64,000 nucleotides of DNA from an uncultured Paracoccaceae bacterium (GTDB taxonomy: Bacteria > Pseudomonadota > Alphaproteobacteria > Rhodobacterales > Rhodobacteraceae): contig CANNFE010000001.1 of NCBI GenBank assembly GCA_947503775.1, positions 124,001 through 188,000 on the forward strand, written 5' to 3'. The position numbers and the translations under genes are program-made. Below the pieces are notes generated by a model. That model was not told the origin of the DNA, did not search any database, and worked only from the letters and a program-made list of their open reading frames with translations. Position 1 is the stretch's first letter; every line of letters begins with the position of its first letter. This document shows, one piece after another, positions 2,023 through 18,789 of this stretch.

Positions 2023-2048
2023 CAGCGCCCTCTTTGGCGCTGTCTTTT
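2023..2048 (+). terminator. Intrinsic terminator of the riboswitch expression platform
   Basis: Stem CAGCGCC/GGCGCTG (2023-2029 and 2036-2042) with a 6-nt loop, followed by TCTTTT. It sits five bases after the B12 box. It fits a transcription-off switch. Competing anti-terminator pairing was not computed. Confidence 0.75.
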
Positions 2049-2158
2049 CAACTCGATGCAGGCGGGGTGCCTGGTCAGGAGCATATGATGGCCAAGCGGA
2101 TCAGTCCGCCGCAACATGGTTCTATTCGGCGCGCCCTCCCCCAATTACGGAGGCTCCG

Positions 2159-2554
2159 ATGGAACACCGGATCACGATTTGCACGTCTTGCAGACACAAG
2201 GGCACCGAATGCCGTCCGGGCTATGAGCTGATCGAAAAGCTGCGCCGCTCGATTGCGACCGCGGGGGATGCCATCCCCGAAGCCTTTGAAATCTCTGGCG
2301 TTGCCTGCATGTCCGGATGCGATCGCCCTTGCACGGTAGCCTATCATGGCACGCGAAAGGCCACCTATCTGTTCGGCGATATCGATCCCGAAGCGGATAT
2401 CGACGATCTCGTCGCCCTTGCCCGCCACTATGCCCAGCTTGAGGATGGCTGGTGCTCTTCGGTGGATCGGCCCGGCAAGTTGCGCAGCTCGACGCTTGCG
2501 CGGGTTCCGGCGGCCATCATCGCGACCCAAGAGGGCAAGGTTCGCGCCTCGTGA
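2159..2554 (+). CDS. DUF1636 family metal-centre protein
   Basis: A 131-residue cytoplasmic protein of the DUF1636 family, which is found with metal and B12 uptake genes and resembles thioredoxin-like [2Fe-2S] ferredoxins. Seen: CTSC near residues 8-11, another Cys near 18, and CMSGCDRPC in the middle, so four or more Cys could hold a cluster. The start is set by GGAGG at 2149-2153. The longer frame back to 1799 runs through the riboswitch and is not coding. It overlaps the ATPase gene by GTGA, so it is first in the operon. The role, possibly handling an imported metal, is inferred. Confidence 0.85.
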   Translation: MEHRITICTSCRHKGTECRPGYELIEKLRRSIATAGDAIPEAFEISGVACMSGCDRPCTVAYHGTRKATYLFGDIDPEADIDDLVALARHYAQLEDGWCSSVDRPGKLRSSTLARVPAAIIATQEGKVRAS

Positions 2555-3351
2555 CGGCTGCAGCGCTTTCGGTCAAAGATCTGTCCTGGGCACCGCCCCG
2601 CGGGGACAAAACCCTGCTCCATGCTACGCATTTCGATGTAGCGGCAGGCCGGGTGCTGGGCGTCGTAGGGCCCAACGGCGCAGGCAAGACGACGCTTCTG
2701 CGATTGCTCTATCGCTACCACCGGCCCGCGACCGGATCCGTCCTAATCGACGGCACCGACATATGGGGCCAGCCTGCGCGCGCGGTCGCCCAAAGGGTCG
2801 CGGCCGTTCTGCAAGAGCACCCCAGCGACTTCGCCCTGACCGTTGAGGACATCGTCACGCTGGGCCGCATACCCCATCGGCGCGGCTTTGCCGGAACCAG
2901 CGGCGAGCATGACCGGCAGATCGTCCAGAACGCCCTGGATCGGCTCAGCCTTCAGCATCTCAAGCGTCGTCATCTTGGCACTCTCTCGGGCGGCGAGCGC
3001 CAGCGCGTCATTATCGCCCGCGCCTTGGCGCAGGAGCCCGGTCTTCTGATCCTCGACGAACCGACGAACCATCTGGATATCCGGCATCAGCTCGAGATCC
3101 TCGATCTGATCCGGAACCTGCCATTGACCATCGTCATCTCGATGCATGACCTCAATCTTGCGGTCGATCTTTGTGACGATCTGCTTTTGCTGCAGGACGG
3201 CAAGCCGCAGGGCTTTGGCCCGCCCAGGCAGGTCCTGTCGGAACACGCCGTCTCTCGCGCCTTTCAGGTCAAGGCCCGCCGCGAACGCCTTGCCCCCAGT
3301 AACACCGACCATCTGACCTTCCACCTTCATGACGAAAGGATAGTTTCATGA
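2551..3351 (+). CDS. ABC transporter ATP-binding protein (FepC/BtuD type)
   Basis: A 266-residue ATPase that powers import across the inner membrane. Seen: Walker A GPNGAGKTT at residues 40-48, signature LSGGERQR near 145-152, Walker B LLILDE at 165-170 followed by PTNHLD, and the switch His in SMHDLN. The GTG start overlaps the DUF1636 stop (GTGA). An upstream ATG at 2452 would add 33 residues unlike the family. The 3' end overlaps the binding-protein start by 4 nt, so the two are coupled. The family handles siderophores, haem and cobalamin. The riboswitch favours a corrinoid. Confidence 0.92.
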   Translation: MTAAALSVKDLSWAPPRGDKTLLHATHFDVAAGRVLGVVGPNGAGKTTLLRLLYRYHRPATGSVLIDGTDIWGQPARAVAQRVAAVLQEHPSDFALTVEDIVTLGRIPHRRGFAGTSGEHDRQIVQNALDRLSLQHLKRRHLGTLSGGERQRVIIARALAQEPGLLILDEPTNHLDIRHQLEILDLIRNLPLTIVISMHDLNLAVDLCDDLLLLQDGKPQGFGPPRQVLSEHAVSRAFQVKARRERLAPSNTDHLTFHLHDERIVS

Positions 3352-4283
3352 GATCCTTGCTCCTTGGCTCCGCTCTTTGCCTGACTGTTGCAGGGCCGGC
3401 GCTCGCCGATATCGACGTTCAAAGCTGCGACCGCACCGTGACCTTCGACGCCCCGCCCGAGCGGGCCGTCTCAAACGACGTCAATCTGACCGAGATGATG
3501 CTGGTCCTTGGCCTTGCGGACCGCATGGTGGGATATACCGGCATTTCAGGTTGGAAGACGCTCGACGAGGAGATGCGCGCTGGGATCGCGGAACTGCCCG
3601 AGCTCTCTGCCAAGTACCCTTCCAAAGAGGTCCTGATCGGTGCCGACGCCGATTTCTTCTTTGCGGGCTGGAATTACGGCATGAGAGTCGGCGGAGAGGT
3701 CACGCCCGAGACGCTGGAGCCCTTTGGGATCAAGGTCTACGAGCTTACCGAGAGCTGTACCCATATCATGGACAAGAACTGGGCCAGTCTCGAGGACATG
3801 TATAACGACCTGCTCAACCTCGGCCTGATCTTCGGCGTTCCGGACGACGCGGCTGCCCTGGTGGACGGCTATCGCGCCGATCTGGCTGAGTTTACGGCAA
3901 ACCTTGAGACGGGCGATCCACTGCGCGTCTTCGTCTATGACAGCGGCGAGGACACGCCCTTCACCGCCGGGCGCTATGCCATGCCCACCGCCCTGATCGA
4001 GGCCGCGGGCGGCACCAACATCATGGAAGATTTTGAGAAAAGCTGGGAGACTGTTACGTGGGAAGAGGTCGTCGAGCGCAATCCGGAGGTCATCGTCATC
4101 GTCAATTACGGCGAGGTGACCGCCGAGCAAAAGCGTGATTTCATGAAGTCCAACCCTGCTTTTGCCGATCTTGACGCGATCAAGAACGACAGGTTCGTGA
4201 CGCTCGACTATGTCGAGGCCACGCCGGGGCCCCGTAATATTCGGGCGATCAAGACGCTGGCGGACGCCTTCTGGAGCCAGTGA
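3348..4283 (+). CDS. ABC transporter periplasmic substrate-binding protein
   Basis: A 311-residue class III (TroA/FepB/BtuF-like) binding protein. Seen: a 20-residue signal peptide ending GPALA before DIDVQ, no lipobox, then PPERAVSNDVNLTEMMLVLG, typical of the N-terminal lobe, and the C-terminal lobe segment NPEVIVIVNYGE. It would deliver the chelate to the downstream permease. The start overlaps the ATPase stop by 4 nt. Its Cys content is low but includes a Cys soon after the signal peptide (DVQSCDRTV). The ligand cannot be read from sequence alone. Confidence 0.9.
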   Translation: MRSLLLGSALCLTVAGPALADIDVQSCDRTVTFDAPPERAVSNDVNLTEMMLVLGLADRMVGYTGISGWKTLDEEMRAGIAELPELSAKYPSKEVLIGADADFFFAGWNYGMRVGGEVTPETLEPFGIKVYELTESCTHIMDKNWASLEDMYNDLLNLGLIFGVPDDAAALVDGYRADLAEFTANLETGDPLRVFVYDSGEDTPFTAGRYAMPTALIEAAGGTNIMEDFEKSWETVTWEEVVERNPEVIVIVNYGEVTAEQKRDFMKSNPAFADLDAIKNDRFVTLDYVEATPGPRNIRAIKTLADAFWSQ

Positions 4284-4287
4284 CCCC

Positions 4288-5343
4288 ATGAGCGAGATCA
4301 CCGGCACCCCGATCCAGAGCCGTCGTTCCGGCCGCCAACCTGCCCTCTTTCTCGGCGGGCTGATCGCGCTTGGGATCTCGCTCTCGGTCGCCATCTCGGT
4401 TGGGGCCGTTCAGGTCCCCCTCGGCACGGTCTGGGGGGTCTTCTTCAATAAAATCTCTCCCGGCCTGATCGAGCCGACTTGGTCCCCGGGCCGCGAGGCC
4501 ATCATCTGGGACATCCGCTTTCCCCGCGCGCTTCTTGCGATGATGGTGGGCGCAGGCCTCGCCCTGGTCGGCGCCAGCCTTCAGGCCGTCACCCGCAATC
4601 CTCTCGCCGACCCGCACCTCTTGGGCATCTCCTCGGGCGGAGCCTTTGGGGCGATCCTGGCGCTCTTGCATACCGGTCTCTTCATCGGCCTTCTCACGGT
4701 TCCACTCATGGCCTTTCTGGGCGCGCTCGCGGCGACGCTGATCGTTCTGGCCGTCTCCCGATTTGCGGATGCCAGCAGCGCCGACAGGCTGGTTCTGGCC
4801 GGTGTTGCGGTGTCCTTCATCATCATGTCCGCTGCGAATGTTCTGATCTTCCTCGGTGATCCGCGGGCCACGCATACCGTCGTCTTCTGGATGCTGGGCG
4901 GTCTGGGGCTCGCGCAATGGGGCCAGCTGATCTACCCGCTTGTAATCCTGCTCGCCTGCGGCGCATGGCTGATGGCTCGCGCCGCAGCGCTCAATGCAAT
5001 GACCGTTGGCGATGAGACCGCCTCCACGCTCGGCATACCGGTCGCCCGCTTTCGACTGTCGATCTTCATGATCGGGGCGCTGATCACCGGCGTGATGGTC
5101 GCCTTTTCGGGCATCATCGGGTTTGTCGGGCTGATGGTGCCTCATATCGTCCGCATGCTCGTGGGAGGAGACTATCGCCGCGTTCTGCCCGGATCCGCCT
5201 TGATCGGAGCGATCTTCCTGCTCTGGGCCGACATCGCCGCGCGTACTGTCATGGCCCCCGAAGACATGCCCATCGGCATCGTCACCGGCCTGATCGGAGG
5301 TCTCTTCTTCATCTGGCTTCTGAGCCGAAGGCAATCGGTTTGA
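4288..5343 (+). CDS. ABC transporter permease, FecCD/BtuC family
   Basis: A 351-residue inner-membrane permease of the FecCD family, with about ten hydrophobic segments. Seen: the family stretch RFPRALLAMMVGAGLALVGA (residues 73-92), then QAVTRNPLADPHLLGISSGG split across two helices, and near the C-terminus GFVGLMVPHIVRML, the coupling-helix region. The ATG at 4288 lies 4 nt after the binding-protein stop. A longer frame from 4210 overlaps the preceding gene and is not favoured. It completes the importer with the ATPase and binding protein. Confidence 0.93.
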   Translation: MSEITGTPIQSRRSGRQPALFLGGLIALGISLSVAISVGAVQVPLGTVWGVFFNKISPGLIEPTWSPGREAIIWDIRFPRALLAMMVGAGLALVGASLQAVTRNPLADPHLLGISSGGAFGAILALLHTGLFIGLLTVPLMAFLGALAATLIVLAVSRFADASSADRLVLAGVAVSFIIMSAANVLIFLGDPRATHTVVFWMLGGLGLAQWGQLIYPLVILLACGAWLMARAAALNAMTVGDETASTLGIPVARFRLSIFMIGALITGVMVAFSGIIGFVGLMVPHIVRMLVGGDYRRVLPGSALIGAIFLLWADIAARTVMAPEDMPIGIVTGLIGGLFFIWLLSRRQSV

Positions 5344-5868: not shown

Positions 5869-6183
5869 ATGTCGAGTTCCGCCAAAAGGCATCTGCGAAT
5901 TGCTGCAGATTTGTACAAGGGCATGCCGTCAGCAGAAATCCAAGAGAAAGTTGGCCGCGATGTCACGATCGAGCCGCTTGTCGAGCTAGGTGACGATGAG
6001 CATTTCAAAGTCAAGCTCGAGATGTCGGACGCCATGGCCAAGCGCTTGGACGGCCGGATTGCCGAAGGCAAAGTGTCGATCACACTTGACGCGCTGGACG
6101 TTGAACTTCAGCACAATCAAAGCTTTGGGATGGTCGCGGCGTCTACCGGGTGCGTGTCGAACAAGGGCGGCCCAGGCTGCTAA
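5869..6183 (+). CDS. Putative RiPP precursor peptide
   Basis: A 104-residue protein encoded directly before seven modification enzymes, with a perfect AAGGAGG site. The first ~84 residues are charged and helical with a strand-like part (VTIEPLVELGDDEHFKVKLE), a plausible leader for enzyme recognition. The last 20, SFGMVAASTGCVSNKGGPGC (85-104), are small, uncharged apart from one Lys, and contain Cys95 and a C-terminal Cys104, Ser/Thr and Gly-Gly, as expected of a core. The cleavage site is unknown. I do not recognise a named precursor family. The role is inferred from position, composition and enzyme neighbours. Confidence 0.78.
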   Translation: MSSSAKRHLRIAADLYKGMPSAEIQEKVGRDVTIEPLVELGDDEHFKVKLEMSDAMAKRLDGRIAEGKVSITLDALDVELQHNQSFGMVAASTGCVSNKGGPGC

Positions 6184-6272
6184 GCCAAACCTGCCCAAGC
6201 CCATTCTGGTTACGGAATTAGCGGCGGCAAGCAATTGCCGCCCTCTAATCTTTATTGTCGAAAGGCGGGCGT

Positions 6273-7532
6273 GTGGGACCGGCTACGTCAAATGCATTTG
6301 CATCGCAGGATGATTTGATCCCGCAGCTTCTGGGGGTCACCGACATTGGCGAATTCCTGAAAGACACCTGGGAGACATCTGCTCGCCTGATGCGCGGATC
6401 GGCAGGTACGATGACCGGTCTTGTCCGGATGGACGAAATCGAGCGGCTCATCGCGGCAGGCTATGACAGCGCCGAAGGCACGGTCAACTTGATCGAAGCG
6501 CAGATGGGGCAAAGGCTCTCGACCTGCGCTGATGGCGATGCAGGCTGGTTGAGCCGCGCTTGCGAGACGCTGATGCGAGGCGGATCGCTGGCCCTGACGG
6601 GTCTGCACCGGCATTTGCCGAAGGTGGCCGCGTTGTGTCGCGGCTTTGACAATGCATTCCTGTCGCATGGCGTTCCGCTGAAACGCGGGGTGTTTGCCAA
6701 CGCTTACCTGACGCCGCCCGATGCGCAGGGCTTCGGGCTGCACTACGACGATCATTGCGTCGTGGTCATTCAACTCTTCGGGCGCAAACACTGGACCGTT
6801 CATGCCCCCAAGGATGTGCTGCCGACGACACCATGCGACCGGGAATTTGCGGAACAAGAGTTGGGATCGCCAATTCAGGAAACTGAGCTTTGCGCCGGCG
6901 ACGTGCTCTATCTGCCGCGCGGTTTCCCTCACGCCGCCCGCTGCTCTAATACTTCGTCGCTACATCTTACACTGGGCATTCAGACAGTGCCTTGGTCGAT
7001 CTTGCCCTCCCGCCTAGCGGATGGTGTCAGCGCGCTTCGGGGCGGGATCGCACCCTTTGCACCGGATGGCACTCCGGCGGCTGCGTATCTACACCGCGCG
7101 ACCGCGGCGATCCACAAGCAGCTGGGTTCGGCCGACATCCTGATGGACCTCTTGTGCGATACGTTGAGCAGCCTGCCCCCCTTGTCAGGTCGGCGTTTGG
7201 CGGCTTCCATGGCCGAACCGCCACGGCTTGACGACACTGTCGTTCGGGCGGCCCAAGTTCTGGTTATTGTCCGACAGCGCGGTGACCACGTGATGTTTCA
7301 CGCGCCGGGCTGCAAGCTGTCCCTGCCTGCGGCGATGCGGGACGCGCTTGAATTCGTATCTGAGGCTGAACGCTTTGTCGTCGGTGACATCCCCACCGGC
7401 GCGGCCGATTTCGACCGCGCTGCGCTTGCAGCCTTGCTTATACGCCAAGGCGTTCTTGCCCCCGCAGCGCCCACCGCGGATCCATCCGAAATAGCGAGCC
7501 CACCGAAGGAGGCGGCCTATGACACCCTCTGA
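6273..7532 (+). CDS. JmjC/cupin-like non-haem Fe(II) oxygenase, copy 1
   Basis: About 419 residues, of the cupin_4/JmjC group that includes the ribosomal oxygenases YcfD, MINA and NO66, which hydroxylate peptide side chains with Fe(II) and 2-oxoglutarate. Seen: HYD giving His157 and Asp159 as metal ligands, then GDVLYLPRGFPHAA giving His220. A C-terminal winged-helix-like region follows, as in YcfD. The GTG at 6273 is chosen for AAAGGCGGGC upstream. A TTG at 6255 is the alternative. It is the first enzyme after the precursor, which is the likely substrate. It overlaps the next gene by 14 nt. Confidence 0.82.
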   Translation: MGPATSNAFASQDDLIPQLLGVTDIGEFLKDTWETSARLMRGSAGTMTGLVRMDEIERLIAAGYDSAEGTVNLIEAQMGQRLSTCADGDAGWLSRACETLMRGGSLALTGLHRHLPKVAALCRGFDNAFLSHGVPLKRGVFANAYLTPPDAQGFGLHYDDHCVVVIQLFGRKHWTVHAPKDVLPTTPCDREFAEQELGSPIQETELCAGDVLYLPRGFPHAARCSNTSSLHLTLGIQTVPWSILPSRLADGVSALRGGIAPFAPDGTPAAAYLHRATAAIHKQLGSADILMDLLCDTLSSLPPLSGRRLAASMAEPPRLDDTVVRAAQVLVIVRQRGDHVMFHAPGCKLSLPAAMRDALEFVSEAERFVVGDIPTGAADFDRAALAALLIRQGVLAPAAPTADPSEIASPPKEAAYDTL

Positions 7533-8166
7533 CACCGCGCAGGCCGCGCCCCCGGCCGCCGCGCCCGACGAGCCGCGCCGGTTCTCCTTCTTGCGCGATG
7601 GCCAGCCTACCGCTGGGGCGCATATGAACTGGATGACCTGCGCGGAACGGCTGGACGATGCCGAATGTGACAGGGTGATCGAAGCCTGCCGCGCGTTCGA
7701 GCTGGTCCCGCCACGTACCGTCGGCGAAGACAAGCTTCCCGGCCACCGCCGGTCGGACACCCGAATGGTCATGCTCAACGAGGAAACGGCCGAATTGTTC
7801 GATCTGTTGTGCAACGTGGCAGAACAGTCCACCGAAGATGCATACGCGCTTGAATTGAGCGGTATCACCCGGGCGCCGCAATACGTCGAATACCGCCCCG
7901 GCTGGGGGGAATTCGGCTGGCACAACGACTACAGCCACGGCATCCCCAACGCACCACGCAAGCTGACAGTGATCCTGCAACTGTCGTCGCCGGATGAATA
8001 CGAAGGCGGGCGATTGCAGGTCATGGGCAACGAGATCGAGGACATGCCCGATGCCCGCGGGTCGATCATCGTCTTTCCATCGATTCTGATGCATCGGGTC
8101 ACCCCGGTCACCACCGGACTGCGCCGGGCGCTGGTCAGCTGGATCGCGGGGCCGCGTCATGCCTGA
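7519..8166 (+). CDS. 2OG-Fe(II) oxygenase, prolyl-4-hydroxylase (PKHD) type
   Basis: A 215-residue double-stranded beta-helix oxygenase. Seen: WHNDYSH with the HxD ligands His135 and Asp137, distal ligand His192 in LMHRV, and a basic residue in GLRRALVSW about ten residues on that would bind 2-oxoglutarate. YEGGRLQV is typical of the PKHD/PiuC group. The ATG at 7519 has AAGGAGG upstream. It overlaps the JmjC gene before it and the PhyH gene after it, so translation is coupled. The likely role is hydroxylation of the precursor. The target residue cannot be read from sequence. Confidence 0.86.
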   Translation: MTPSDTAQAAPPAAAPDEPRRFSFLRDGQPTAGAHMNWMTCAERLDDAECDRVIEACRAFELVPPRTVGEDKLPGHRRSDTRMVMLNEETAELFDLLCNVAEQSTEDAYALELSGITRAPQYVEYRPGWGEFGWHNDYSHGIPNAPRKLTVILQLSSPDEYEGGRLQVMGNEIEDMPDARGSIIVFPSILMHRVTPVTTGLRRALVSWIAGPRHA

Positions 8167-8920
8167 TGCCTCGGGCGATACCACCCTTAACCCAGTCGAC
8201 CGTATCCTGGGCGCCATGGACGAGACCGGCTTCTGCGTCGTTCCGGACGTCCTGTCGCGCGACGAAGCAATGGCGCTCGCCAGTATCGTGCTGACGCTGC
8301 AACAGGGCGAGGCGCGCGAGGACGTTGCCAAGCTGGGCCATGCACGGGTGTTGCACCTGCTCACCAAGCATCCGGTTTTTGTCCAACTGCTGACCCACCC
8401 CATCGCGATGGCGGTGAACGAGCGGTATCTGGGCTCCGACTTCGTCTGTTCAACCTTTTCCAGCAACTGCGCGTTGCCGGGCAAAGATCTGACCTATTGG
8501 CACTGCGATCATCCCTACTGGACGATCGCCGCACCCTACCAGGTCGATCCACCGCTGACCGCGCATGTGATCTGGTGCCTGACCGACATGTCGGAAGAAA
8601 CGGGGGGAACCAAATTCGTTCCGGGCTCGCATCGGCGCCCCTATCTGCCCAAGCACGAGGCCGATCATGATTTCGAAGGCGTGACGCCCAACGCGCCGGC
8701 CGGCTCGCTGATCTTTGCCCATGGCGCGTGCTGGCACAGTGCCGGACGCAACGACAGCGCGGACCCACGAATCGGTATATTTGTCCGCTACGCGCGCAGT
8801 TTTCTGATCCCGCAAGAAGACATGCGCCTGCAGCTTCCGGCAATCGACAACCCCGCTGACGTTGTCCGGCGCCTGTTGGGCGCCGACCAATACGTGCCGC
8901 AACGCAGCTATCCCTATTGA
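8159..8920 (+). CDS. Phytanoyl-CoA dioxygenase (PhyH) family oxygenase
   Basis: A 253-residue PhyH-type Fe(II)/2OG oxygenase. Seen: ETGFCVVPDVLSRDEA near the N-terminus (family hallmark), WHCDHPYW with His115 and Asp117, FVPGSHRRP, and the distal ligand His193 in ACWHSAGRN, then a basic residue for 2-oxoglutarate. It overlaps the preceding oxygenase by 8 nt. PhyH enzymes hydroxylate or halogenate small molecules and some natural-product intermediates. Here a peptide-tailoring role is inferred from the operon. It is the third iron oxygenase in the locus. Confidence 0.86.
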   Translation: MPDASGDTTLNPVDRILGAMDETGFCVVPDVLSRDEAMALASIVLTLQQGEAREDVAKLGHARVLHLLTKHPVFVQLLTHPIAMAVNERYLGSDFVCSTFSSNCALPGKDLTYWHCDHPYWTIAAPYQVDPPLTAHVIWCLTDMSEETGGTKFVPGSHRRPYLPKHEADHDFEGVTPNAPAGSLIFAHGACWHSAGRNDSADPRIGIFVRYARSFLIPQEDMRLQLPAIDNPADVVRRLLGADQYVPQRSYPY

Positions 8921-8955
8921 TGCCAGGATAGCCGCTATCTGAACAGGAGCCCGAA

Positions 8956-10470
8956 ATGACCCTCAGTATCCGAGACCAGATTCGCCAAGCCCACAGTCTG
9001 CGAGCGGGCGCCTCGGCGCCAGAGTTTCCGATGTTCGGCAGCCCCGAAGTCGCGGCCTATGGTGCCCTTGATCTCGAGGACCCTGCATCTCCCAAGGCAC
9101 CGGTAGAGGATGATGCCCCTCCGATCCTGCACCGCAAGACCGCCGACGGCAAACGTGATGTCTTCGAGCTTGAACGCTCGGAACCACTGCCGTTGATCGC
9201 TGGACTGCGCCACCATCCGGTTGACGACGCCCACCTGTGGCTGGGCGTCGAGGAAGGCAAGCTGATCGTCGCCGACGATACCGATCACCTTGTCATGCGG
9301 GCGCTGGTTTCGGGTCATCCGCCGGTTGTTGCCGCTTTGGCATTGGCCGACACACAGGGCCTGGACGCAGCCGACGCCTGGGTAGTGACCCTGAAATTCG
9401 TGGCACGGCTGGCCGCCGCAGGGTTCGTTCGGGGCATCCGGGGGTACTATGCCGTCAAGCCAGTCCGCCCGCATCGCTTTGCCCGGCTACATCTGACCAA
9501 CCGGTGCCAGCTGGAATGCATTCACTGCTATACGAGTTCCGGACCGAACGTGGACAGTGCCGGAGAACTGACGCCCGAGCGTTGGATTTCGCTGGTCGAT
9601 GCCTTCGCAGACAACGGTGGCGAAAAAATCCTGTTCACCGGGGGCGAGGCGCTGGTCTACCGCGGAGCCATCGACATCATGCGCCGGGCCAAGGAACGAG
9701 GGCTCGAAGTGACCCTGTTTTCCAACGGCATCCTTATCAAGCGTCATCTGAAGGATCTGAAGGACGTAGCTGATATCGTGCAGATCAGCCTCGACGGGCC
9801 TGGCCCGGAAAGCCACGACCGGGTCCGCGGCCGCAATTCGTTCCAAAAGGCGATCGAAGCGATCGACCTGTTGCTTGACGACGGCATCGAAACCCGTGTT
9901 TCGACCACAATAATGACCGACAACTGGCCGGCGATCCGCGACGATTTCCCGAAGCTGATCGACCGCTTCAAAGACACCAGACTCGGCTTTCGGGTCAGCT
10001 ATGGCACCATGCCGCACGGCCGCGGCACCAAGCTCGAGCATGCGTTGGACGAGACTGAAGTGCGGGCCTTTGTCGACACCCTGCTGAGCCGGGTCAAGAC
10101 CAGCGAAAACCGCGATGGCGGGCGCAACGTCGTGCAAAAGATCGTCGGCTGCGGCTACGCCGAACAACTTGTCGTGGCGCCGGACGGCGTGATCTATCCT
10201 TGCCACCTCATGTCGGGGGCCCTGGGACACGTGGACCAGATGCCACTGCCGGACATCACGCATTACCTGAAGCGGACGGCTGAGGCGTTCAGCGTGGACC
10301 ACCGCAAGGGATGCGGCACTTGCGATCTGCGCAATCTCTGTGGCGGGTCGTGCCGCGTGGAGGACGAGAAACACACTGGCAGCCGACTGATCACCACCTG
10401 CACGCCGGAGGACAAGATACGGAAGAAACGCTTCCTCGTTCGCCGCTACCGGCCCGTTCCCGCGGATTGA
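8956..10470 (+). CDS. Radical SAM/SPASM peptide-modifying enzyme with N-terminal recognition domain
   Basis: 504 residues. Seen: Cx3Cx2C at Cys184, Cys188 and Cys191 (TNRCQLECIHC), binding the SAM-cleaving [4Fe-4S] cluster; FTGGEALVY, the GGE motif; a SPASM region with Cys near 395 and 412 and then CGTCDLRNLCGGSC and a further Cys near 482 for auxiliary clusters. Residues ~75-165 look like a winged-helix, PqqD-like RiPP recognition element. SPASM enzymes make thioether, C-C or epimer modifications in peptides. It sits 35 nt after the PhyH gene. Gene 3' end is 3 nt from the next start. Confidence 0.9.
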   Translation: MTLSIRDQIRQAHSLRAGASAPEFPMFGSPEVAAYGALDLEDPASPKAPVEDDAPPILHRKTADGKRDVFELERSEPLPLIAGLRHHPVDDAHLWLGVEEGKLIVADDTDHLVMRALVSGHPPVVAALALADTQGLDAADAWVVTLKFVARLAAAGFVRGIRGYYAVKPVRPHRFARLHLTNRCQLECIHCYTSSGPNVDSAGELTPERWISLVDAFADNGGEKILFTGGEALVYRGAIDIMRRAKERGLEVTLFSNGILIKRHLKDLKDVADIVQISLDGPGPESHDRVRGRNSFQKAIEAIDLLLDDGIETRVSTTIMTDNWPAIRDDFPKLIDRFKDTRLGFRVSYGTMPHGRGTKLEHALDETEVRAFVDTLLSRVKTSENRDGGRNVVQKIVGCGYAEQLVVAPDGVIYPCHLMSGALGHVDQMPLPDITHYLKRTAEAFSVDHRKGCGTCDLRNLCGGSCRVEDEKHTGSRLITTCTPEDKIRKKRFLVRRYRPVPAD

Positions 10471-10473
10471 CCC

Positions 10474-11664
10474 GTGGCTCAACCTGGCATCCTGCGCACT
10501 CTGATCGGCGGCGACGATCCCGCGCAATTTCTGGCGGGGGACTGGGGACGCTCCGTGGGGTACTGGCCCGGCGCGCTGGCGGGCCGTACCGACCTGCTCT
10601 TGTCACTCGAGGAGTTTGAGGCGGTACTTGCAGGGTTCAACCGCGCGCATGAGGGCTGGTTGCATTTCGCCGACCAGGGTCTGCGCGCTATTCCGCAGGA
10701 TTTCGTCTGCAGCGACGGAATGCTTGACATGCGCCGGCTTGCCGAAGCCTTCACTCAAGGCCAGACTCTGTATCTGACCAAGGCCGAACGCGCACTGCCC
10801 CGTCTCGGCGGGTTGTGTGCGGCGTTGTCCGCCGATCTCGCGGATCATGGCGTGGCGCTGCGCCAAGGGATCAATGGGCATGTCTTCCTAACACCCAGCG
10901 GGTCCCAGGGCTTTGCGCCCCACCGCGATGCCCACGCCAGCTTTGTCATGCAGTGCGAAGGCGAAAAGCGCTGGAAAGTCTACACTCCGCGAGACAGCGG
11001 ACCGCGAGCGCACCGTCCGGGTGCCACAAGTCCCGAGGTTCTGGCCCGTCACGAGTTGTTCGACGTGACCTTGCGTGCCGGCGACGTCCTTTACATGCCG
11101 GATTGGTGGCCACACGAGGCGATGGCCGCAGATCAGCATTCCTTGCACGTGACCATTCGGCTGTTCCCGCTGCGCTGGACCGATCTGGTACAGGCCCTCG
11201 TCGACCGGATTGATACGCTCGCGGCGGTGGTGCCAATCGGTACGGACCCCGCGACGGCTGCAAAGCTGCTCTGCAAACAGCTGGGCGCCGCTGACACACA
11301 GCAGGCTCTAACCGACCTGCTGCCGCGCTCCTGGTCCGAGATCAGCGCCTCGCCTGTGCAGGAGCGAACGAGCGCTGCGCTACGGGAATCCGTAGCAGCA
11401 GCGAAGCTGGAGCTCGCCACGCCGCTGGTTCGGGTCGGGCATCTATCTTGCGAGGTACGGCAGACCGACGACGCAGCGGTGTTGTCGTTCGGAGGCATCA
11501 CGGTGCGTGGCCCGCTCCCCTTTGGCCCGGTATTCCAGTTCGTGGCCGGGCATCCCCGTCTGCGACCTTGTGATCTTCCCGCAATAGATGCGGACTACGA
11601 CCGCCTTGACGTGGCCCGACGACTGGTGCGCGACGGTCTCTTGGTGGCCGAGGCTGCGCCATGA
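10474..11664 (+). CDS. JmjC/cupin-like non-haem Fe(II) oxygenase, copy 2
   Basis: A 396-residue paralogue of the protein at 6273-7532, with the same layout. Seen: ligands His150 and Asp152 in APHRDAH, distal His214 in GDVLYMPDWWPHEA, and a C-terminal wing-like region. The start is GTG at 10474, three bases after the radical SAM stop. It overlaps the TfuA-YcaO ATG by 4 nt. The two copies are clearly diverged, so they may act on different residues, or one may serve as a partner. All three metal ligands are kept in both. Confidence 0.82.
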   Translation: MAQPGILRTLIGGDDPAQFLAGDWGRSVGYWPGALAGRTDLLLSLEEFEAVLAGFNRAHEGWLHFADQGLRAIPQDFVCSDGMLDMRRLAEAFTQGQTLYLTKAERALPRLGGLCAALSADLADHGVALRQGINGHVFLTPSGSQGFAPHRDAHASFVMQCEGEKRWKVYTPRDSGPRAHRPGATSPEVLARHELFDVTLRAGDVLYMPDWWPHEAMAADQHSLHVTIRLFPLRWTDLVQALVDRIDTLAAVVPIGTDPATAAKLLCKQLGAADTQQALTDLLPRSWSEISASPVQERTSAALRESVAAAKLELATPLVRVGHLSCEVRQTDDAAVLSFGGITVRGPLPFGPVFQFVAGHPRLRPCDLPAIDADYDRLDVARRLVRDGLLVAEAAP

Positions 11665-14264
11665 ACATCCCGTTGCGCGCCACCGTGTTTCTTGGCCCGT
11701 CGCTTCCGGCGGACTTGGCGCATGGCATCCTTGACGCCGATTACCGCCCTCCGGTGCGACGCGGCGATCTTGATGCATTTGTGCCGGGGGACGTGGTGGG
11801 CATCATCGACGGTGTCTTCGAACAGAACCTCGCCGTCAGCCCCGAAGAGGTGTACCGGGCGCTCAACCGCGGCATCGTGCTGTTCGGCGGCTCTTCGATG
11901 GGGGCGTTGCGCGCTTCCGAAGTACCCGGTGTGAAAGGTGTCGGCCGCGTGTTCGAATGGTACCGCGACGGACATGTGACCCGTGACGACGAAGTGGCTT
12001 TGCTCTTCGATCCGATGCGGCACCAGGCGATGACTGTCCCCACCGTCAGCGTCCGCTTTGCCGTCGACCGGCTGCGCAGCCTGGGCACGCTGGATGCGAC
12101 CACCGCAGCCGCGCTAATCGCCGCGGCAGAAAGCCTGAACTTCCGAGATCGGACGTATCGCCGGATCCTGCGCGCCGCAGGCCTGGATCAGCGGGCAGAC
12201 GCCAACGACTTGATAGCGATGCTGGCCTCCTATGACATCAAGGCCACCGATGCCCAGGCGGTGCTTGAAGCGATCGACCGGCACATGCAAAGCGGAGCGG
12301 CCTCTCGCAACACCGGGACCAAGCCCGAACAGGCGTCCGAAGTCCCCGCACCTAACCGGCCCGAGGGGCTCTTGATCTGGGAATCGGGCGACGCACCAAC
12401 GATGGAGATGCTGTACAGGTTTCTTGCCTTCACCGGCGATCTGCCGCATCTGCCCGGGATAGAGGTATCAATCGATGCCGCCGGTATGTCGACCGCCGCA
12501 CAAAGCCGATTTGTGGATACAGCACGTCGGTGGGGCTGGATGTCGGGGGATGAGGCCAGTGTCACACTGGCCGATCTGCATTTGGAAAGTGACCTGATGG
12601 GCGCGGCTTGCGCCGGCGCCGCGCTGGAGACTGAACAGCGAAGGGCGGCCTTTCGCGCGGCGGCCGAGCCCGATATGGCCGCGGCCCTGCGCGCGGCCCT
12701 AGTTGTGGACAACATGGGATTGAAACGTGTTTTGATGCGCTGCGCAGCATTGCCGTGGCTGGCAGCGCGCATCGATACGCCACCAGACGATGCCGATCTG
12801 GCCGAGGCGCGGCAGGCCATTATGCGCCGCCACGCCGTCGCGCGCTTTCACGAGGTGGAGGCAGTTTGGCGTCAAACCGGGCTAAGCGATCAAGACAGCA
12901 AGGAATTGCTAAAGACTCTGGCCCAAGCGCGCCGATATGCCCGCAGAGCAATTGCTGAGATGAGGGGAACAGAACAATCACGTGACATCCCGCCAGAGAC
13001 GCTCGCAGATGAGCTGCCCCCAAGTCCAAAACCTGATGGGGAAATCCGGTTTGCCAATACCGTCGGAGAGGCGGTCTCTATTGCTCGGCGAGTGGCCGAT
13101 ACGATTGGCATCACACGGATCGGAATGATCGGCGAGTTGGGCGATTTGGGCAAGGTCCAAGTGGCGCAGGCCGCCCGCCCCGGCAACGCCTGGTCCTCAA
13201 GCTATGGCAGTGGCAAATCATGCAGCCGCGACGGCGCCATTGTCGGTGCGGTGATGGAGGAATGTGAGAAATGGGCACAGGAACGGTTCGATCCGACTCC
13301 GATTCTCACGGGCAGCTATGCCGCCCTGTCGCTTTTCCACCCATTGGTCGATCCTGCCACAATCGATCTGCCGTATGACAGTGTCTACCATGCCGATCTC
13401 GAACTGGATTGGATCGCAGCCACCGATCTATCGTCGGGGCAGCCCCGGTTCCTGCCGCGCGACTTGCTCGTTCTGGCACGAGTGCCCCATGACATTTGCT
13501 ACAGCGCCCGCGGCGCACGCAAACATCTAGCCACCAACGGACTGGGAGCAGGTTTGTCGCGGGCCGAGGCATTGCTGCACGGCCTGTGCGAATTCGTCGA
13601 ACGGCATGCCCAACGGATCGCCGAGCTCTACCTGAGCAATCCCGGGGGTCTCGGGGTTCAGCCATTCCGGTTTGTCGATGCGCGCGCGGCCGCACCGCAT
13701 CTGCAGCACATCATCGACGGGTTGATCGAGCGCGTTGATGCCATCCGCGTGCTGGACGTTACCTGCGAGATCGCCATACCGACTTACATGGCTGCGATTG
13801 TCCGAAACGGACAGGTGGCACAAGGCTTTGGCGCACACCCCAACCCCGTCGCCGCTCTCGAGGCCGCGCTGCTTGAAGCGGCGCAGACAATCGCGAGTTC
13901 TGTCGCTGGCGGTCGCGAGGATCTGTCGATCCATGCCCGGTCGCTGGGGCGTCATGAACGCCCGCGTCCAGCCGATGCAGCAACCGCGTGGTTCTGGATC
14001 GATCCCGATAGTCCCGAATGGCCGCTACGGCCCGATACCGGATTTGTCAGCACCGATGTGCGTTGCGATCTTGCTTGGTGTCTTGAGGCGGCAAGGCGTG
14101 CCGGCATCCAGGAGGTCTTGGCCGTCGATCTCAGCCACCCAGATATTGCGCCCGTGCAGGTAGTGCGCGTCGTGGTGCCAGGACTAGAAAGCAACAACCC
14201 GTTCTACACCGGCCCACGCGCTCGGCTTGCCCTGCTGCGCGATCTGCTGCCGCGCTGGGTTTAG
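11661..14264 (+). CDS. TfuA-YcaO fusion protein
   Basis: 867 residues. The N-terminus is TfuA-like (VFLGPSLP, IIDGVFEQ, LFGGSSMGALRASE, residues ~5-130), then a helical middle, then YcaO. The ATP-site features are SRDGAIVGAVMEECEKW (~516-537) and NGLGAGLSRAEALLHGLCEF then VERHAQR (~625-650). YcaO enzymes activate peptide backbone amides with ATP to form azolines or, usually with TfuA, thioamides. TfuA and YcaO are more often separate proteins. There is a 4-nt overlap with the preceding gene. Together with core Cys/Ser/Thr, either thioamide or azoline is possible. Confidence 0.88.
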   Translation: MNIPLRATVFLGPSLPADLAHGILDADYRPPVRRGDLDAFVPGDVVGIIDGVFEQNLAVSPEEVYRALNRGIVLFGGSSMGALRASEVPGVKGVGRVFEWYRDGHVTRDDEVALLFDPMRHQAMTVPTVSVRFAVDRLRSLGTLDATTAAALIAAAESLNFRDRTYRRILRAAGLDQRADANDLIAMLASYDIKATDAQAVLEAIDRHMQSGAASRNTGTKPEQASEVPAPNRPEGLLIWESGDAPTMEMLYRFLAFTGDLPHLPGIEVSIDAAGMSTAAQSRFVDTARRWGWMSGDEASVTLADLHLESDLMGAACAGAALETEQRRAAFRAAAEPDMAAALRAALVVDNMGLKRVLMRCAALPWLAARIDTPPDDADLAEARQAIMRRHAVARFHEVEAVWRQTGLSDQDSKELLKTLAQARRYARRAIAEMRGTEQSRDIPPETLADELPPSPKPDGEIRFANTVGEAVSIARRVADTIGITRIGMIGELGDLGKVQVAQAARPGNAWSSSYGSGKSCSRDGAIVGAVMEECEKWAQERFDPTPILTGSYAALSLFHPLVDPATIDLPYDSVYHADLELDWIAATDLSSGQPRFLPRDLLVLARVPHDICYSARGARKHLATNGLGAGLSRAEALLHGLCEFVERHAQRIAELYLSNPGGLGVQPFRFVDARAAAPHLQHIIDGLIERVDAIRVLDVTCEIAIPTYMAAIVRNGQVAQGFGAHPNPVAALEAALLEAAQTIASSVAGGREDLSIHARSLGRHERPRPADAATAWFWIDPDSPEWPLRPDTGFVSTDVRCDLAWCLEAARRAGIQEVLAVDLSHPDIAPVQVVRVVVPGLESNNPFYTGPRARLALLRDLLPRWV

Positions 14265-14273
14265 GAGGGCCAG

Positions 14274-16172
14274 ATGAAGGACACAGTCGAAACTGCCCCG
14301 CGTGCGCAAGTGCTGCTGGTGTCACCACCATGGATGAAAGCTGGATGGCCGTGCTTGGGTATAGCCGCGCTGAAGTCATGCCTTGCGGTGAACGGGGTCG
14401 CGGTCCAATGCAGCCATTTCCATCTCGAAACTGCGGCACGACTGGGGTGGGACAATTATGACAGCCTCGCCGAGGCATGTGGGGCGGGTGAGGCCCTGTT
14501 CGGGGCCTTGATCGACCACGAAGACGCTGCGCGTCTTACCGCCTATGCGGGACGTGAGCTGCGCACCGCCGGGTTCGAGGCGCTGGCGGACTGGGCCGAG
14601 GGGCCGGCCTGTACCGAACTTCAGCAATTGATCGACCGTTGGATCGACGATGTCGGCGCGATCAAGGCACCGATTATCGGCGTTTCGGTCGGCGCAATGC
14701 AGCTCTGTGCCGCGATTTATCTGGTTCAACGCCTCGCGCAGCGCGGTCATTTCGGCGTCCGGGTCCTAGGCGGATCAGGCTTGGTTGGCAGCTGCGGCAC
14801 CGAGGTACTGCGTCGCGTTCCCGAGGTCGACTACGTGGTTCAGGGTGAGGGTGAAGAGAGCTTTTCCCGCCTGGTAAACGCCTTGTTGGAAAAGCCCGGC
14901 CGGGATCTCGCGGTGCCCGGAGTCATAAGCCAGACGGCACCGTATATCGGCCGCGGACCAGGTGTCAATCTGGCGAAAGTTCCAGCTCCTGACCTGTTCG
15001 AGTACTTTGCGACGGCCGCCCGCCTCGGGATCCCCAAGACCGCGCTGAACCTGTCGTTCGAGCATTCGCGCGGTTGCGAATGGGAACATCGCACGCCTGG
15101 CAAGCTGCGGGGCTGCACCTTTTGCGGGCTCTATCGGGGCTCACCCGATTTTCGGCGCAAACCCGTCGATGTCTTGTGCCGCCAGGTGCAGGACAGCGTC
15201 AACAGTTACCGCAACCTGAACGTCGCCTTTGTTGATGCCTATTTGACGGAAGGCAATCGTGACGCGTTACTGGACGCGCTGAACAGCCTGCCAGAAGACA
15301 TTACGTTCTTTTCCGAACTGCGTTGTGACATGTCGCCGGACACCGTGGCGCGTCTGGCGCTACGCGCACGACATGTGCAACTGGGCGTCGAGTCCTTCTC
15401 GACCGAGATACTTCAGAAGATCGGAAAAGGGGTCAGTGGCGCGCATTCGGTTTACAATGTGCGCCTGTGCCAAGAGGCAGGCATTTCCCTTCAATACAAC
15501 CTTATGCATGGGATCCCGGGTGTCACAAAGGCGCAAGTGGACGCGTTGGCGGCGAGCCTGCCCACACTCTTCGGGCTGGTGCCGCCTCAGCCTGCACGTC
15601 TTTATCTTGACCGCAACAGCCTCTTGTACCGCACGCCATCCGACTATGGGATTGACCCGCTCTCGCTGGACGCGATCCGTCACGAATGGCTCGCCCACGC
15701 ACTTGGCGACAACGAAATCAGCCCCGATGTGTCCTTTGCCCCGACTGACGATTTGGCCGAGGCGTGGGATGAACTTGAGGTGTTGGTGCGAACTTGGAAA
15801 GCGCTTTGGCGGCGCACCACGGCCGCCGATATCGCTTCGCCGCTGCTGTGGAGAGCCGGCTCAGAGTGGGCCAGTGTTACGGACCTGCGCGACGGTAAGT
15901 TGCACGCCTATGAGATCGACGGCCTGCTGCACCAGGTGTTTCTAGCCTGCGACGCTGTCGTTACACTGCAAAAGATCGCCCGCCTGCTGCCCAACCACAG
16001 CGCATCCGAGATCGCAATGGCCTTGGCCGAACTTGTAAGCCGAGGTTTGGTTTTCCGCGATGGGCCCCGGTACGTCCGCGTGGCCATCCGCGAATGTCGG
16101 GATGGCACGCTGGCGTCCTCCAGTGCAGCTGTGCGCCAGCGCGCGTTGTACGGCGCTTCGCTAGAGTCTTAG
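14274..16172 (+). CDS. B12-binding-type radical SAM enzyme, RiPP maturation radical SAM protein 1 family
   Basis: 632 residues. The N-terminal third resembles a cobalamin-binding Rossmann domain (VLLVSPPWMKAGWPCLGIA, then a Gly-rich VLGGSGLVGS and VDYVVQGEGEESF). The radical SAM part has SRGC then CTFCGLYRG, with Cys268, Cys281 and Cys284, so the spacing is Cx12Cx2C instead of the family's Cx7Cx2C. The C-terminus has a winged-helix-like tail. The start has AGGAGG upstream. B12-radical SAM enzymes often methylate unactivated carbon. It is the last gene of the locus, and the cobalamin uptake operon is only about 9 kb away. Confidence 0.85.
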   Translation: MKDTVETAPRAQVLLVSPPWMKAGWPCLGIAALKSCLAVNGVAVQCSHFHLETAARLGWDNYDSLAEACGAGEALFGALIDHEDAARLTAYAGRELRTAGFEALADWAEGPACTELQQLIDRWIDDVGAIKAPIIGVSVGAMQLCAAIYLVQRLAQRGHFGVRVLGGSGLVGSCGTEVLRRVPEVDYVVQGEGEESFSRLVNALLEKPGRDLAVPGVISQTAPYIGRGPGVNLAKVPAPDLFEYFATAARLGIPKTALNLSFEHSRGCEWEHRTPGKLRGCTFCGLYRGSPDFRRKPVDVLCRQVQDSVNSYRNLNVAFVDAYLTEGNRDALLDALNSLPEDITFFSELRCDMSPDTVARLALRARHVQLGVESFSTEILQKIGKGVSGAHSVYNVRLCQEAGISLQYNLMHGIPGVTKAQVDALAASLPTLFGLVPPQPARLYLDRNSLLYRTPSDYGIDPLSLDAIRHEWLAHALGDNEISPDVSFAPTDDLAEAWDELEVLVRTWKALWRRTTAADIASPLLWRAGSEWASVTDLRDGKLHAYEIDGLLHQVFLACDAVVTLQKIARLLPNHSASEIAMALAELVSRGLVFRDGPRYVRVAIRECRDGTLASSSAAVRQRALYGASLES

Positions 16173-16502: not shown

Positions 16503-16647
16503 GACGTTCGATGAGTCGGCCAGTTCGCCCTCCGGCGCGGCGTAGCGACAGCAGGAACAAGATGATAGCGAGGGCGATCACACCGTAGCGCTGTGCGGCC
16601 CGCGCCAATTGGCTGGTCGCGATCCCACCGAGGAAAGTGGCGATCAT
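16390..16647 (-). CDS. Putative inner-membrane spanin (Rz-like)
   Basis: 85 residues: one membrane helix (GVIALAIILFLLSL, residues ~24-37) followed by a charged helical tail (RLIERLETTEKANEIQRRML) likely to form a coiled coil in the periplasm. It overlaps the lipoprotein frame downstream and the endolysin gene upstream (4 nt). The start at 16647 is chosen because the longer frame would read deep into the endolysin. A small holin is the alternative, but a single helix plus a coil favours a spanin. Confidence 0.55.
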   Translation of the reverse strand: MIATFLGGIATSQLARAAQRYGVIALAIILFLLSLRRAGGRTGRLIERLETTEKANEIQRRMLEAAARRPRDRDELVDRLRDGSF

Positions 16648-17318
16648 CTCTGCCTTCGCTTCCAGTCGTCGAGGCGGGCGTAGATCGTGACCGCAATGCC
16701 CCCGAGCGCGACGGCGATGAGCACCCAACGCAGCGTGTCGAGATACGGGACCAGCGGAAGGATGGCCTCTTGGGTTTCAGCCAGCACCTGCTGCGCTACC
16801 TCCACGCCCGCCGCACCTAGCGTCGCCACACCCGCTGCACCGCCTCCCTTCATGGAGCGGCTGTCGGCCAGCACTTCGCGCGCGGGCGGCGTCTCGGCTG
16901 CGAATGCTGACTCCCGGACTGGGAACCGCTCGCCCCACTGCCGCGCAGGGCCGAGATCGACATGGATGAACCCCGATCGCGGGTAGAAGCCGAAGCCGAG
17001 GAACCCGACCTCACGCGCTGCCGTCTCGAAGGCCACGGGGTCGTGGTTCGTCATGGCGATATCGAAGGCGGCGCCGTCCAGATGCTTAGAGCGGGTCGCG
17101 CCGCGCACGGCGCGGTTGTGCTCGGGGCTGCGATAGGCCGAGCGGACGATCAGCGGCTTCCCAAGCCGGTCGCGCAGCGCCTGCAGCCTGTCGAGCGCAG
17201 GTTCGTTGATGAGCAGCTTGCCGGTGCCCCGGCAGGCGATCTCCGCCGGGCTGAAGTTCGGCCAGCGCCAGTTGCTCTCCGACACGTCGCGCCAGTGGTC
17301 GTAAAAGGTCGTGGTCAT
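16644..17318 (-). CDS. Peptidase M15-type endolysin with C-terminal membrane helix
   Basis: 224 residues. The N-terminal 125 residues are a D-Ala-D-Ala carboxypeptidase-like M15A fold: SAYRSPEHN, SKHLDGAAFDI with zinc ligands His79 and Asp86, and IHVDLG with His119. It would cut peptidoglycan cross-links at lysis. After a linker rich in Ala/Gly is a hydrophobic segment (LRWVLIAVALGGIAVTIYA) near the C-terminus, so the enzyme is probably membrane-anchored, unlike the usual soluble form. It is preceded by a minus-strand terminator at 17330-17361. Confidence 0.85.
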   Translation of the reverse strand: MTTTFYDHWRDVSESNWRWPNFSPAEIACRGTGKLLINEPALDRLQALRDRLGKPLIVRSAYRSPEHNRAVRGATRSKHLDGAAFDIAMTNHDPVAFETAAREVGFLGFGFYPRSGFIHVDLGPARQWGERFPVRESAFAAETPPAREVLADSRSMKGGGAAGVATLGAAGVEVAQQVLAETQEAILPLVPYLDTLRWVLIAVALGGIAVTIYARLDDWKRRQR

Positions 17319-17702: not shown

Positions 17703-18779
17703 TCAGCCGATCTTGCAGCCCCAGAAGGACGTGTGATCGGCTGCGAAATACCCATCCTGCGCGCGGAAATACCCCTGGAGCTCAACCGTATCGCCCGCCG
17801 TCAGCGGTACCATGGTCTGCAGCCAGATCGCGGTGGCCAGCGAGACATGGGTGGCGGAGATTTCGCCGAGGGAGCCGCGGATTTCCGTCGTGCCGTTCAG
17901 GACGAGCCGCCCGCGCATGCGGGCCGTGGCGCTGGCGTTGATCTTGTAGAGCAGCGTCGCCCCGAAGAGGTAGGTCCCGTCCACAGGCGCGGTGAACAGG
18001 TTGCTCCCGGCATCAAACGCGCCCTGATCGTTGTAGTCGGTGTTGTTGAGGCCGATCTTCGTCCATGTGCCGACGCCGACATAGTTGTCGTAGTTGGTGT
18101 ACGCCTTGAACCGGGGCAGCCGGGGCTGGTCCACGATGCCGTTGGCGTTGTCGACGGTCAGCCCGTCGAAGAAGGTGATGCCGTCGGCGGATACAGCGAG
18201 CCGAAAACTGTCCGACCCGAACAGGCCGACCAGTGCCTTCGTCACGAAACCGGTCTGCAGCGTCAGCCCGAGGTCGTCGCCCGCAGCCTCCTTGTTCATG
18301 GTGTAGAAGAGATCACCGGTCCCGCCCTCGGCCACGGTCTTCGCCGTCCAGAGCGCAGCGTTGAGTTTGGCTGAGAACGGGTTAGCGGCATCGGCGTTCG
18401 TGCCCAACCCAAGCAGCGCGAGGTTCTGCAATTCACCGGGCGTGGTCCCGACCCATGCGGAGCCGTCGTAAACGAGCAGCAATTCCTCGTCCTCGACCCA
18501 TGCGTGCCAGCCAGTCCGGGGAGGCAGGCGCAGCCATGCCCCATCTGTGAACAGCGCCACATTCAGGTCCCAACCCGCCCAATCGCCTGTGCCGCCGCTG
18601 GCCACGATGTAGCGGTCACCATCGGCCGGGCTGCCGGGCGGCGCGGTCAGGTCGCGGTCGAGGACGGAAAGCTGGATCAGCCCGTCGAGGATGCGCAGTG
18701 CCTCGTTGTGAGTGACATGCTTCTGGGCCTGCGCCGCGAGGATGTAGGGCAGTAGCAGGTTGGTCGTGGTGTCGGACAT
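17703..18779 (-). CDS. DUF2793 phage tail/receptor-binding protein
   Basis: 358 residues. The N-terminal ~120 residues are DUF2793: TTNLLLPYILAAQAQKHVTHNEALR and GSPADGDRYIVA with WAGWDLNVALFTDGAW, all hallmarks of proteins encoded after the tail tip gene in alphaproteobacterial phages and gene transfer agents. The C-terminal half is beta-rich and ends in a C1q/TNF-like trimer pattern (NYVGVGTWTKI, DGTYLFGATLLYKIN), suggesting a trimeric head that contacts the host. It lies 10 nt after the tail tip gene. Confidence 0.82.
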   Translation of the reverse strand: MSDTTTNLLLPYILAAQAQKHVTHNEALRILDGLIQLSVLDRDLTAPPGSPADGDRYIVASGGTGDWAGWDLNVALFTDGAWLRLPPRTGWHAWVEDEELLLVYDGSAWVGTTPGELQNLALLGLGTNADAANPFSAKLNAALWTAKTVAEGGTGDLFYTMNKEAAGDDLGLTLQTGFVTKALVGLFGSDSFRLAVSADGITFFDGLTVDNANGIVDQPRLPRFKAYTNYDNYVGVGTWTKIGLNNTDYNDQGAFDAGSNLFTAPVDGTYLFGATLLYKINASATARMRGRLVLNGTTEIRGSLGEISATHVSLATAIWLQTMVPLTAGDTVELQGYFRAQDGYFAADHTSFWGCKIG

Positions 18780-18789
18780 GGGTTGGCCT

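Follow-up and report, generated by a model that had tools for sequence, protein, structure and literature searches.

A locus of eight genes at positions 5869-16172 (plus strand) of a 64,000-nt stretch of DNA (hereafter the window) from an uncultured Paracoccaceae bacterium (GenBank assembly GCA_947503775.1, contig CANNFE010000001.1) very probably directs the synthesis of a new kind of hypermodified ribosomally synthesized and post-translationally modified peptide (RiPP), in which the core of a leader-bound precursor is thioamidated, radical-crosslinked and oxidized and, in the window lineage, further modified by a B12-dependent enzyme. The locus comprises one gene for a 104-aa precursor and seven tightly packed enzyme genes encoding two JmjC proteins, one PKHD-type 2-oxoglutarate (2OG) oxygenase, one PhyH protein, a SPASM radical S-adenosylmethionine (SAM) enzyme, a TfuA-YcaO fusion and a B12-binding radical SAM enzyme (Table 1). 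A first-pass annotation of this DNA had proposed this gene set, and all eight frames were found at the same place and strand with agreeing family matches; the short gaps and overlaps that it had described were also found, with successive inter-gene distances of 71, -14, -8, 35, 3, -4 and 9 nt from the precursor to the B12 enzyme. The set goes beyond chance, because most of it clusters in three other loci and the core motif occurs only once in the six reading frames of the window. The locus represents a rare RiPP family with a conserved core that has apparently spread horizontally.

Relatives were detected by tblastn of 72,556 plasmid records (E up to 1e-20 with the TfuA-YcaO fusion and up to 1e-40 with the SPASM radical SAM enzyme as query). 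The only organism detected with the fusion was Streptantibioticus cattleyicolor (Streptomyces cattleya) NRRL 8057, represented by two records (48.6% identity over 98% of the query); its megaplasmid carries in order the precursor gene, a JmjC1-PKHD fusion, the radical SAM gene, JmjC2 (40.7%), TfuA-YcaO and PhyH (41.8%). The radical SAM query added a plasmid of Mycetohabitans endofungorum, on which genes for PhyH, a PKHD-type oxygenase, the radical SAM enzyme, a 101-aa precursor and one JmjC protein lie between insertion sequences; this may be a reduced or ancestral-type cluster. The Mycetohabitans copy (L023, 3071-10572) has IS5 and IS481 transposase genes on its flanks, and its plasmid is typed as conjugative. 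The fourth locus lies in genome G764, from the same order as the Streptomyces flavotricini genome G390, and contains the full set except the B12 enzyme in the gene order of S. cattleya. Six enzyme modules are common to the window and both actinobacterial loci, the B12 enzyme being a seventh that the window has in addition, and two of the four loci (S. cattleya and Mycetohabitans) are plasmid-borne. Cluster boundaries were drawn by comparing the open reading frames of at least 80 aa in a 32.5-kb S. cattleya stretch with a 19.5-kb G764 stretch (flanks of about 4.3 and 6.9 kb) and with the window at E 1e-6; in both comparisons similarity spans the precursor to PhyH, with nothing outside. The earlier statement that the locus holds no exporter or protease is borne out within the flanks compared, as the actinobacterial similarity stops at the precursor and PhyH. 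An MFS gene, a methyltransferase gene and regulators near the S. cattleya locus are unshared.

The precursor gene stands beside the enzyme genes in all four loci: that of the window, the pair from actinobacteria and the betaproteobacterial one. In the window its product ends in ...NQSFGMVAASTGCVSNKGGPGC, and a Shine-Dalgarno-like AAGGAGG is located just 5' of the gene. The eight window proteins were compared with Pfam and NCBIfam models, and the precursor had no match at E 0.01. Twelve residues are invariant in the four precursors (I71, L73, Q84, M88, G94, C95, S97, N98, G100, G101, P102 and C104), ten of them within the last 21 positions, and C104 directly precedes the stop codon. The terminal motif G-C-x-S-N-x-G-G-P-x-C-stop is common to the four loci (8 of its 11 residue positions invariant), while most of the remaining peptide sequence is divergent. 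The Cys-containing, Gly-rich C-terminus ahead of the enzyme genes, which the first-pass annotation had described, is thus conserved in the relatives; a precursor is also present in each of the three other loci bearing the radical SAM gene, weakly similar outside the motif in Mycetohabitans, so that the RiPP reading survives both comparisons. In tblastn within each locus the window precursor matched that of S. cattleya (38.8% identity, E 9.8e-15) and G764 (E 2.0e-12). Between S. cattleya and G764 the ratio of nonsynonymous to synonymous substitution rates (dN/dS; a simple Nei-Gojobori count, crude and based on small numbers) is 0.28 for the last 36 aligned codons vs 1.21 for the other 55, and 0.25 for the fused JmjC1-PKHD gene, a contrast expected if a constrained leader tail and core lie behind a freely changing N-terminus. 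No ratio is given for the window and S. cattleya precursors because synonymous sites are saturated in that stretch. The G764 precursor carries a third Cys, with ACTGC replacing ASTGC immediately before the invariant core. The 71-nt gap behind the window precursor gene folds with -23.2 kcal/mol (z -2.85; equalled by 0 of 200 shuffles), and its hairpins are a possible attenuator that may help to raise the precursor over enzyme levels. A terminator reading of these hairpins was dropped as unsupported, as the terminator scan did not list them.

The SPASM radical SAM enzyme is conserved in all three other loci at 45-61% identity (S. cattleya 59.8%, Mycetohabitans 44.8%). It matches Radical_SAM at 3.9e-27 and falls just under the cut-off of the SPASM model (20.5 vs 21.5 bits), and it has an intact CxxxCxxC at 184-191 plus seven further Cys residues. 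Its best model is the StsB sactipeptide maturase (NF045574, 4.9e-37), at 127.8 bits far under the cut-off of 625, so it does not qualify as an StsB-type enzyme by that model. Over its whole length it matches SkfB (4.2e-27) and 5wgg (CteB; 6.9e-16). A four-sequence profile of the N-terminus matches TfuB1 (6jx3), a RiPP recognition element (RRE) protein, at 3.5e-5, which points to a putative leader-binding RRE-like domain there. StsB, SkfB and CteB form thioethers, and because of the similarity to them and the two invariant precursor Cys residues a thioether is the leading guess for this enzyme; the two Cys residues make a sactipeptide-type link from Cys to an alpha carbon possible. The B12 enzyme scores 291.5 bits against TIGR03975, 'RiPP maturation radical SAM C-methyltransferase' (cut-off 281.85). 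The earlier annotation had counted it in the set; it is present in the window, but among the four loci in the window only, and so stands outside the conserved set. It had no match in G764 or on the Mycetohabitans plasmid, and a single remote match on the S. cattleya plasmid (27%, E 4.3e-7) lies far from the locus. We regard it as accessory because both actinobacterial loci have all other components without it. It could methylate, as the model name says, or crosslink, by analogy with the biphenomycin-like pbs pathway.

JmjC1 and JmjC2 match JmjC_2 (PF08007) at 4.3e-25 and 7.8e-22, the PKHD-type protein matches 2OG-FeII_Oxy_3 (PF13640) at 1.5e-13 with PKHD-type models matching below cut-off, and the PhyH protein matches PF05721 at 1.7e-24 and is 40-42% identical in all three other loci. 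Read by the HxD...H iron motif, the putative iron ligands are invariant: H135/D137/H192 in the PKHD-type protein (four aligned rows, together with R202), H115/D117/H193 in PhyH (four rows, together with R204) and H163/D165/H226 in JmjC (seven rows, JmjC1 numbering). JmjC1 was called from TTG at 6255, an uncertain start, with a downstream GTG possible. A five-row JmjC profile matches NO66 at 2.6e-34, L16 arginine hydroxylases are among its matches, and the cupin-4 protein 4csw is matched via the C-terminal region, at 2.8e-14 overall and at 0.016 by the C-terminal part alone. The JmjC1 and PKHD genes, which overlap by 14 nt in the window, are one fused gene in both actinobacterial loci. In a tree of seven JmjC proteins, which is moderate evidence as the program warns of long branches, window JmjC1 and JmjC2 each join their actinobacterial counterparts (support 88/90 and 91/94), so the duplication probably predates the separation of the loci. 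An RRE survey describes JmjC proteins (PF08007) of fish and algae that carry a fused RRE-like fold, and it notes homologues from bacteria in RiPP-like surroundings (PMC12710340); a JmjC enzyme is described as hydroxylating ornithine in biphenomycin (PMC12707348). Side-chain hydroxylation is the most likely activity of the JmjC, PKHD and PhyH enzymes.

The family is rare in overlapping genome samples, in which the genus of the window is represented by one genome. Full-length TfuA-YcaO occurs in 1 of 390 genomes of the window's order, and at E up to 1e-70 in 1 of 299 in its phylum; the radical SAM query at E up to 1e-55 finds 1 of 398 in that phylum, the window itself in each case. With the same query G764 is the one hit in the order of G390 (1/391, E up to 1e-60), in its own genus (1/199) and in its own phylum (1/296; both E up to 1e-55). 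A scan of genome contigs with TfuA-YcaO gave one weak YcaO relative (L019, 28%) and nothing else, and no relative turned up in viral contigs scanned with the radical SAM alignment. Partial matches to TfuA or YcaO only (31-43% identity, E up to 1e-30) were seen in 16 of the 390 genomes of the order (L002-L017). YcaO lies upstream of TfuA in 15 of them, the reverse of the fusion (in a different frame in 14 and in the same frame in L010), and one has TfuA alone; no other query protein matched within 3.6-4.1 kb around them. On these grounds they were rejected as relatives, and they are possibly other thioamide pathways.

The assignment of a thioamide depends on the TfuA-YcaO fusion, a single protein in the window, S. 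cattleya and G764 (52% identity over the alignment in the two others) that contains both TfuA (3.4e-34) and YcaO (2.4e-57). The TfuA part matches the solved TfuA 6xp8 at 1.6e-44, and the solved chain closest to the YcaO part is MJ1094 (8.2e-18). Between the two, a middle domain (12351-13085, plus strand) contains WESGD and RRWGW conserved in three of three proteins; its best Pfam hit has an E of 0.034, above the limit of 0.01. An alternative is that the YcaO acts as a cyclodehydratase, converting core Cys and Ser residues to azolines with no backbone thioamide. Invariant Cys95, Cys104 and Ser97 would be possible substrates, and the YcaO part matches the cyclodehydratases TruD and LynD as well as the SagD cyclodehydratase model; the latter reaches 89.4 bits vs 110.1 for the McrA-thioamidation model, both below cut-off. 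Against azolines stand the fused TfuA domain, the absence of a ThiF/E1-like (C-protein) partner or flavin-dependent azoline dehydrogenase among the eight proteins in Pfam and NCBIfam, which sets the locus apart from linear azol(in)e clusters, and the C-terminus LLPRW(V/S) in three of three fusions, where cyclodehydratases end in PxPxP. We consider this route improbable and retain backbone thioamidation. In the std pathway a YcaO-TfuA pair thioamidates the Asn of an SNK motif, according to the available text (PMC13174530). The window core also reads SNK, with SN invariant in all four precursors, and by analogy Asn98 would be a candidate site, an analogy weakened by the Mycetohabitans locus discussed below.

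Two further explanations concern the target and the fate of the product. The enzymes might modify a cellular protein, the small gene encoding a partner or inhibitor, with no natural product made; in Escherichia coli YcaO is described as thioamidating uL16 beside hydroxylated Arg81 (PMC13063428), and the L16 hydroxylases among the JmjC matches fit this picture. We hold it to be very improbable, given that the small gene is conserved C-terminally and divergent elsewhere as precursors are, that nearly all sampled genomes are without the locus, and that TIGR03975 is a RiPP-maturation model. A RiPP product may instead remain inside the cell or at its surface, serving as a cofactor, a metal-binding peptide or a signal, and not be an exported antibiotic, which we rate as unlikely, though less so than the azoline route. 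The two invariant Cys residues and a thioamide could bind soft metals, and the lack of a shared exporter, protease or immunity gene in the flanks compared and the iron/B12-type importer just upstream in the window agree with such a role; that importer is unshared with S. cattleya, however, rarity argues against a housekeeping cofactor, and several known thioamide RiPP clusters are described as having no transporter in the available text, though thiovarsolin has an MFS gene (PMC8120280).

Several observations weigh against a hypermodified thioamide RiPP family as set out here. The searches yielded just four loci, of which two are closely related, and the flanks compared have no exporter, transporter, protease, regulator or immunity gene in common. 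The Mycetohabitans precursor is weakly similar outside the motif (E 1.7e-4 inside its own 16-kb locus), and a search of the plasmid collection that contains it missed it even at E up to 10, S. cattleya being the sole precursor match; it is therefore assigned to the family by the motif and by its position among the enzyme genes. Mycetohabitans also keeps the core motif, including SN, while the whole 157-kb plasmid record has no TfuA-YcaO, so that thioamidation by itself does not account for the motif. Structure predictions of JmjC1 (aligned with JmjC2 alone) and TfuA-YcaO (single sequence) had a mean predicted local distance difference test score (pLDDT) of 33.9 and 36.5 and were not used.

We infer the chemistry of the hypermodified RiPP, the order of its steps and its role from the observed gene content, conserved C-terminus, intact metal-site residues and shared boundary. 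The RRE-like domain of the SPASM enzyme would bind the precursor through the SITLDALDVE...NQSFGM stretch, to which the C-terminal winged-helix region of JmjC possibly binds as well, and binding would be followed by modification of the core, which forms the very end of the peptide and reads roughly A-x-T-G-C-x-S-N-x-G-G-P-x-C. TfuA-YcaO would replace one backbone oxygen by sulfur, the likeliest site being invariant Asn98 or a Gly, and the SPASM enzyme would introduce a crosslink by radical chemistry, a thioether between an invariant Cys and a carbon in a neighbouring residue being most likely. The four 2OG oxygenases would hydroxylate or further oxidize side chains, and in the window lineage the B12 radical SAM enzyme would either methylate the peptide or install an additional C-C bond. 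Leader removal and export would be carried out by functions encoded outside the locus, and the product would most likely be a rare specialized metabolite with biosynthetic genes that plasmids carry from one bacterium to another. It is quite possible, and we suggest it tentatively, that the family is a RiPP class of its own, which is either old or has been transferred widely across phyla. In such a class a single leader would serve both the RRE and the JmjC winged helix, the eleven-residue motif would acquire a backbone thioamide, a Cys crosslink made by radical chemistry and the products of as many as four separate 2OG-oxygenase reactions, and the C-terminal Cys would itself belong to the active group.

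Table 1. Features of the RiPP locus in the window
Feature	Position	Strand	Remark
Precursor peptide gene, 104 aa	5869..6183	+	Homologues in 3/3 other loci
Conserved precursor C-terminal part	6076..6180	+	SITLDALDVE (leader-proximal), then NQSFGM and core
Two hairpins in the precursor/JmjC1 gap	6199..6242	+	Folding of the 71-nt gap
JmjC1, NO66/YcfD-type 2OG oxygenase with C-terminal winged-helix-like region	6255..7532	+	PF08007 JmjC_2
Prolyl-4-hydroxylase-like/PKHD-type 2OG oxygenase	7519..8166	+	PF13640
PhyH-type 2OG oxygenase	8159..8920	+	PF05721
SPASM radical SAM enzyme with N-terminal RRE-like domain (about residues 75-165)	8956..10470	+	Radical_SAM; StsB best model
JmjC2, paralogue of JmjC1	10474..11664	+	PF08007
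TfuA (residues 7-206)-middle domain (about 231-475)-YcaO (about 481-867) fusion, predicted backbone thioamidase	11661..14264	+	PF07812, PF02624
B12-binding radical SAM enzyme, accessory	14274..16172	+	TIGR03975

Upstream of the locus (1799-5343, plus strand) are genes for a DUF1636 protein, an ABC ATPase, a periplasmic-binding protein and a FecCD permease, resembling an iron/B12-type importer; these were dropped as cluster members, nothing similar being shared with the S. cattleya locus. On the other side a Peptidase_M15_3 gene (16644-17318) separates the cluster from a tail module (17703-24769, minus strand) that resembles Rhodobacter gene transfer agents (GTA) and encodes DUF2793, a GTA TIM-barrel/Phage-tail_3/Rcc01698_C protein, NlpC/P60, a baseplate hub (BR0599) and DUF2460; these neighbouring genes agree with the Rhodobacterales named in the first-pass annotation.

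The locus unites enzyme types usually found in different RiPP classes, and its sharp conserved target motif therefore makes the modifications testable enzyme by enzyme. A solved product would reveal the role of paired ribosomal-oxygenase-family JmjC enzymes on a peptide, and would enlarge the few characterized YcaO-TfuA RiPP classes (as counted in the available text of PMC13174530). The C-terminal motif can serve as a search key for further members, and the sequenced S. cattleya NRRL 8057, which carries a copy, is a practical source. The first-pass annotation had stated that no described class holds the full set, which stands in so far as no description of this gene set or a characterized product was found in the literature (few subscription papers covered), and needs qualifying in one respect. 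Malit et al. (2021) reported a Burkholderia thailandensis cluster, uncharacterized, that like the window has a fused tfuA-ycaO and two RiPP-type radical SAM genes (PMC8120280). A phytanoyl-CoA dioxygenase is included in their Figure 5 legend, the panel not being certain from the text; JmjC and PKHD genes and the precursor motif are not described in the available text, and by this description the cluster may be a sibling of the window locus (PMC8120280).

Among the characterized systems, streptosactin-type sactipeptides are linked to the window by StsB, the best model for its SPASM enzyme, whereas the window precursor differs and extra enzymes are present. In thioamitides TfuA and YcaO are separate proteins that act on a small precursor. 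Thiovarsolins resemble the window in that TfuA and YcaO act on a small precursor, and differ in having separate TfuA and YcaO, other precursors, and a var gene list that, in the text available, is without radical SAM or JmjC genes (PMC6511847). The std pathway of Streptomyces thermodiastaticus, as described in the portion of the paper available, parallels the prediction made here in that YcaO-TfuA thioamidation of the SNK Asn is followed by hydroxylation of a neighbouring residue, but it employs a multinuclear non-heme iron-dependent oxidative enzyme (MNIO), a carbamoyltransferase-protease and an MFS permease, and its cluster list names no radical SAM or JmjC/PhyH gene (PMC13174530). The biphenomycin and pbs clusters resemble the window in combining a JmjC hydroxylase with another oxygenase and a B12 radical SAM enzyme, the last of which makes a biaryl crosslink there; they are MNIO-based, contain an arginase and a protease, act on another core, and YcaO and TfuA are unnamed in the available text (PMC12257519, PMC12707348), whereas no MNIO is found among the eight window proteins with Pfam and NCBIfam, which separates the window locus from biphenomycin-type clusters.

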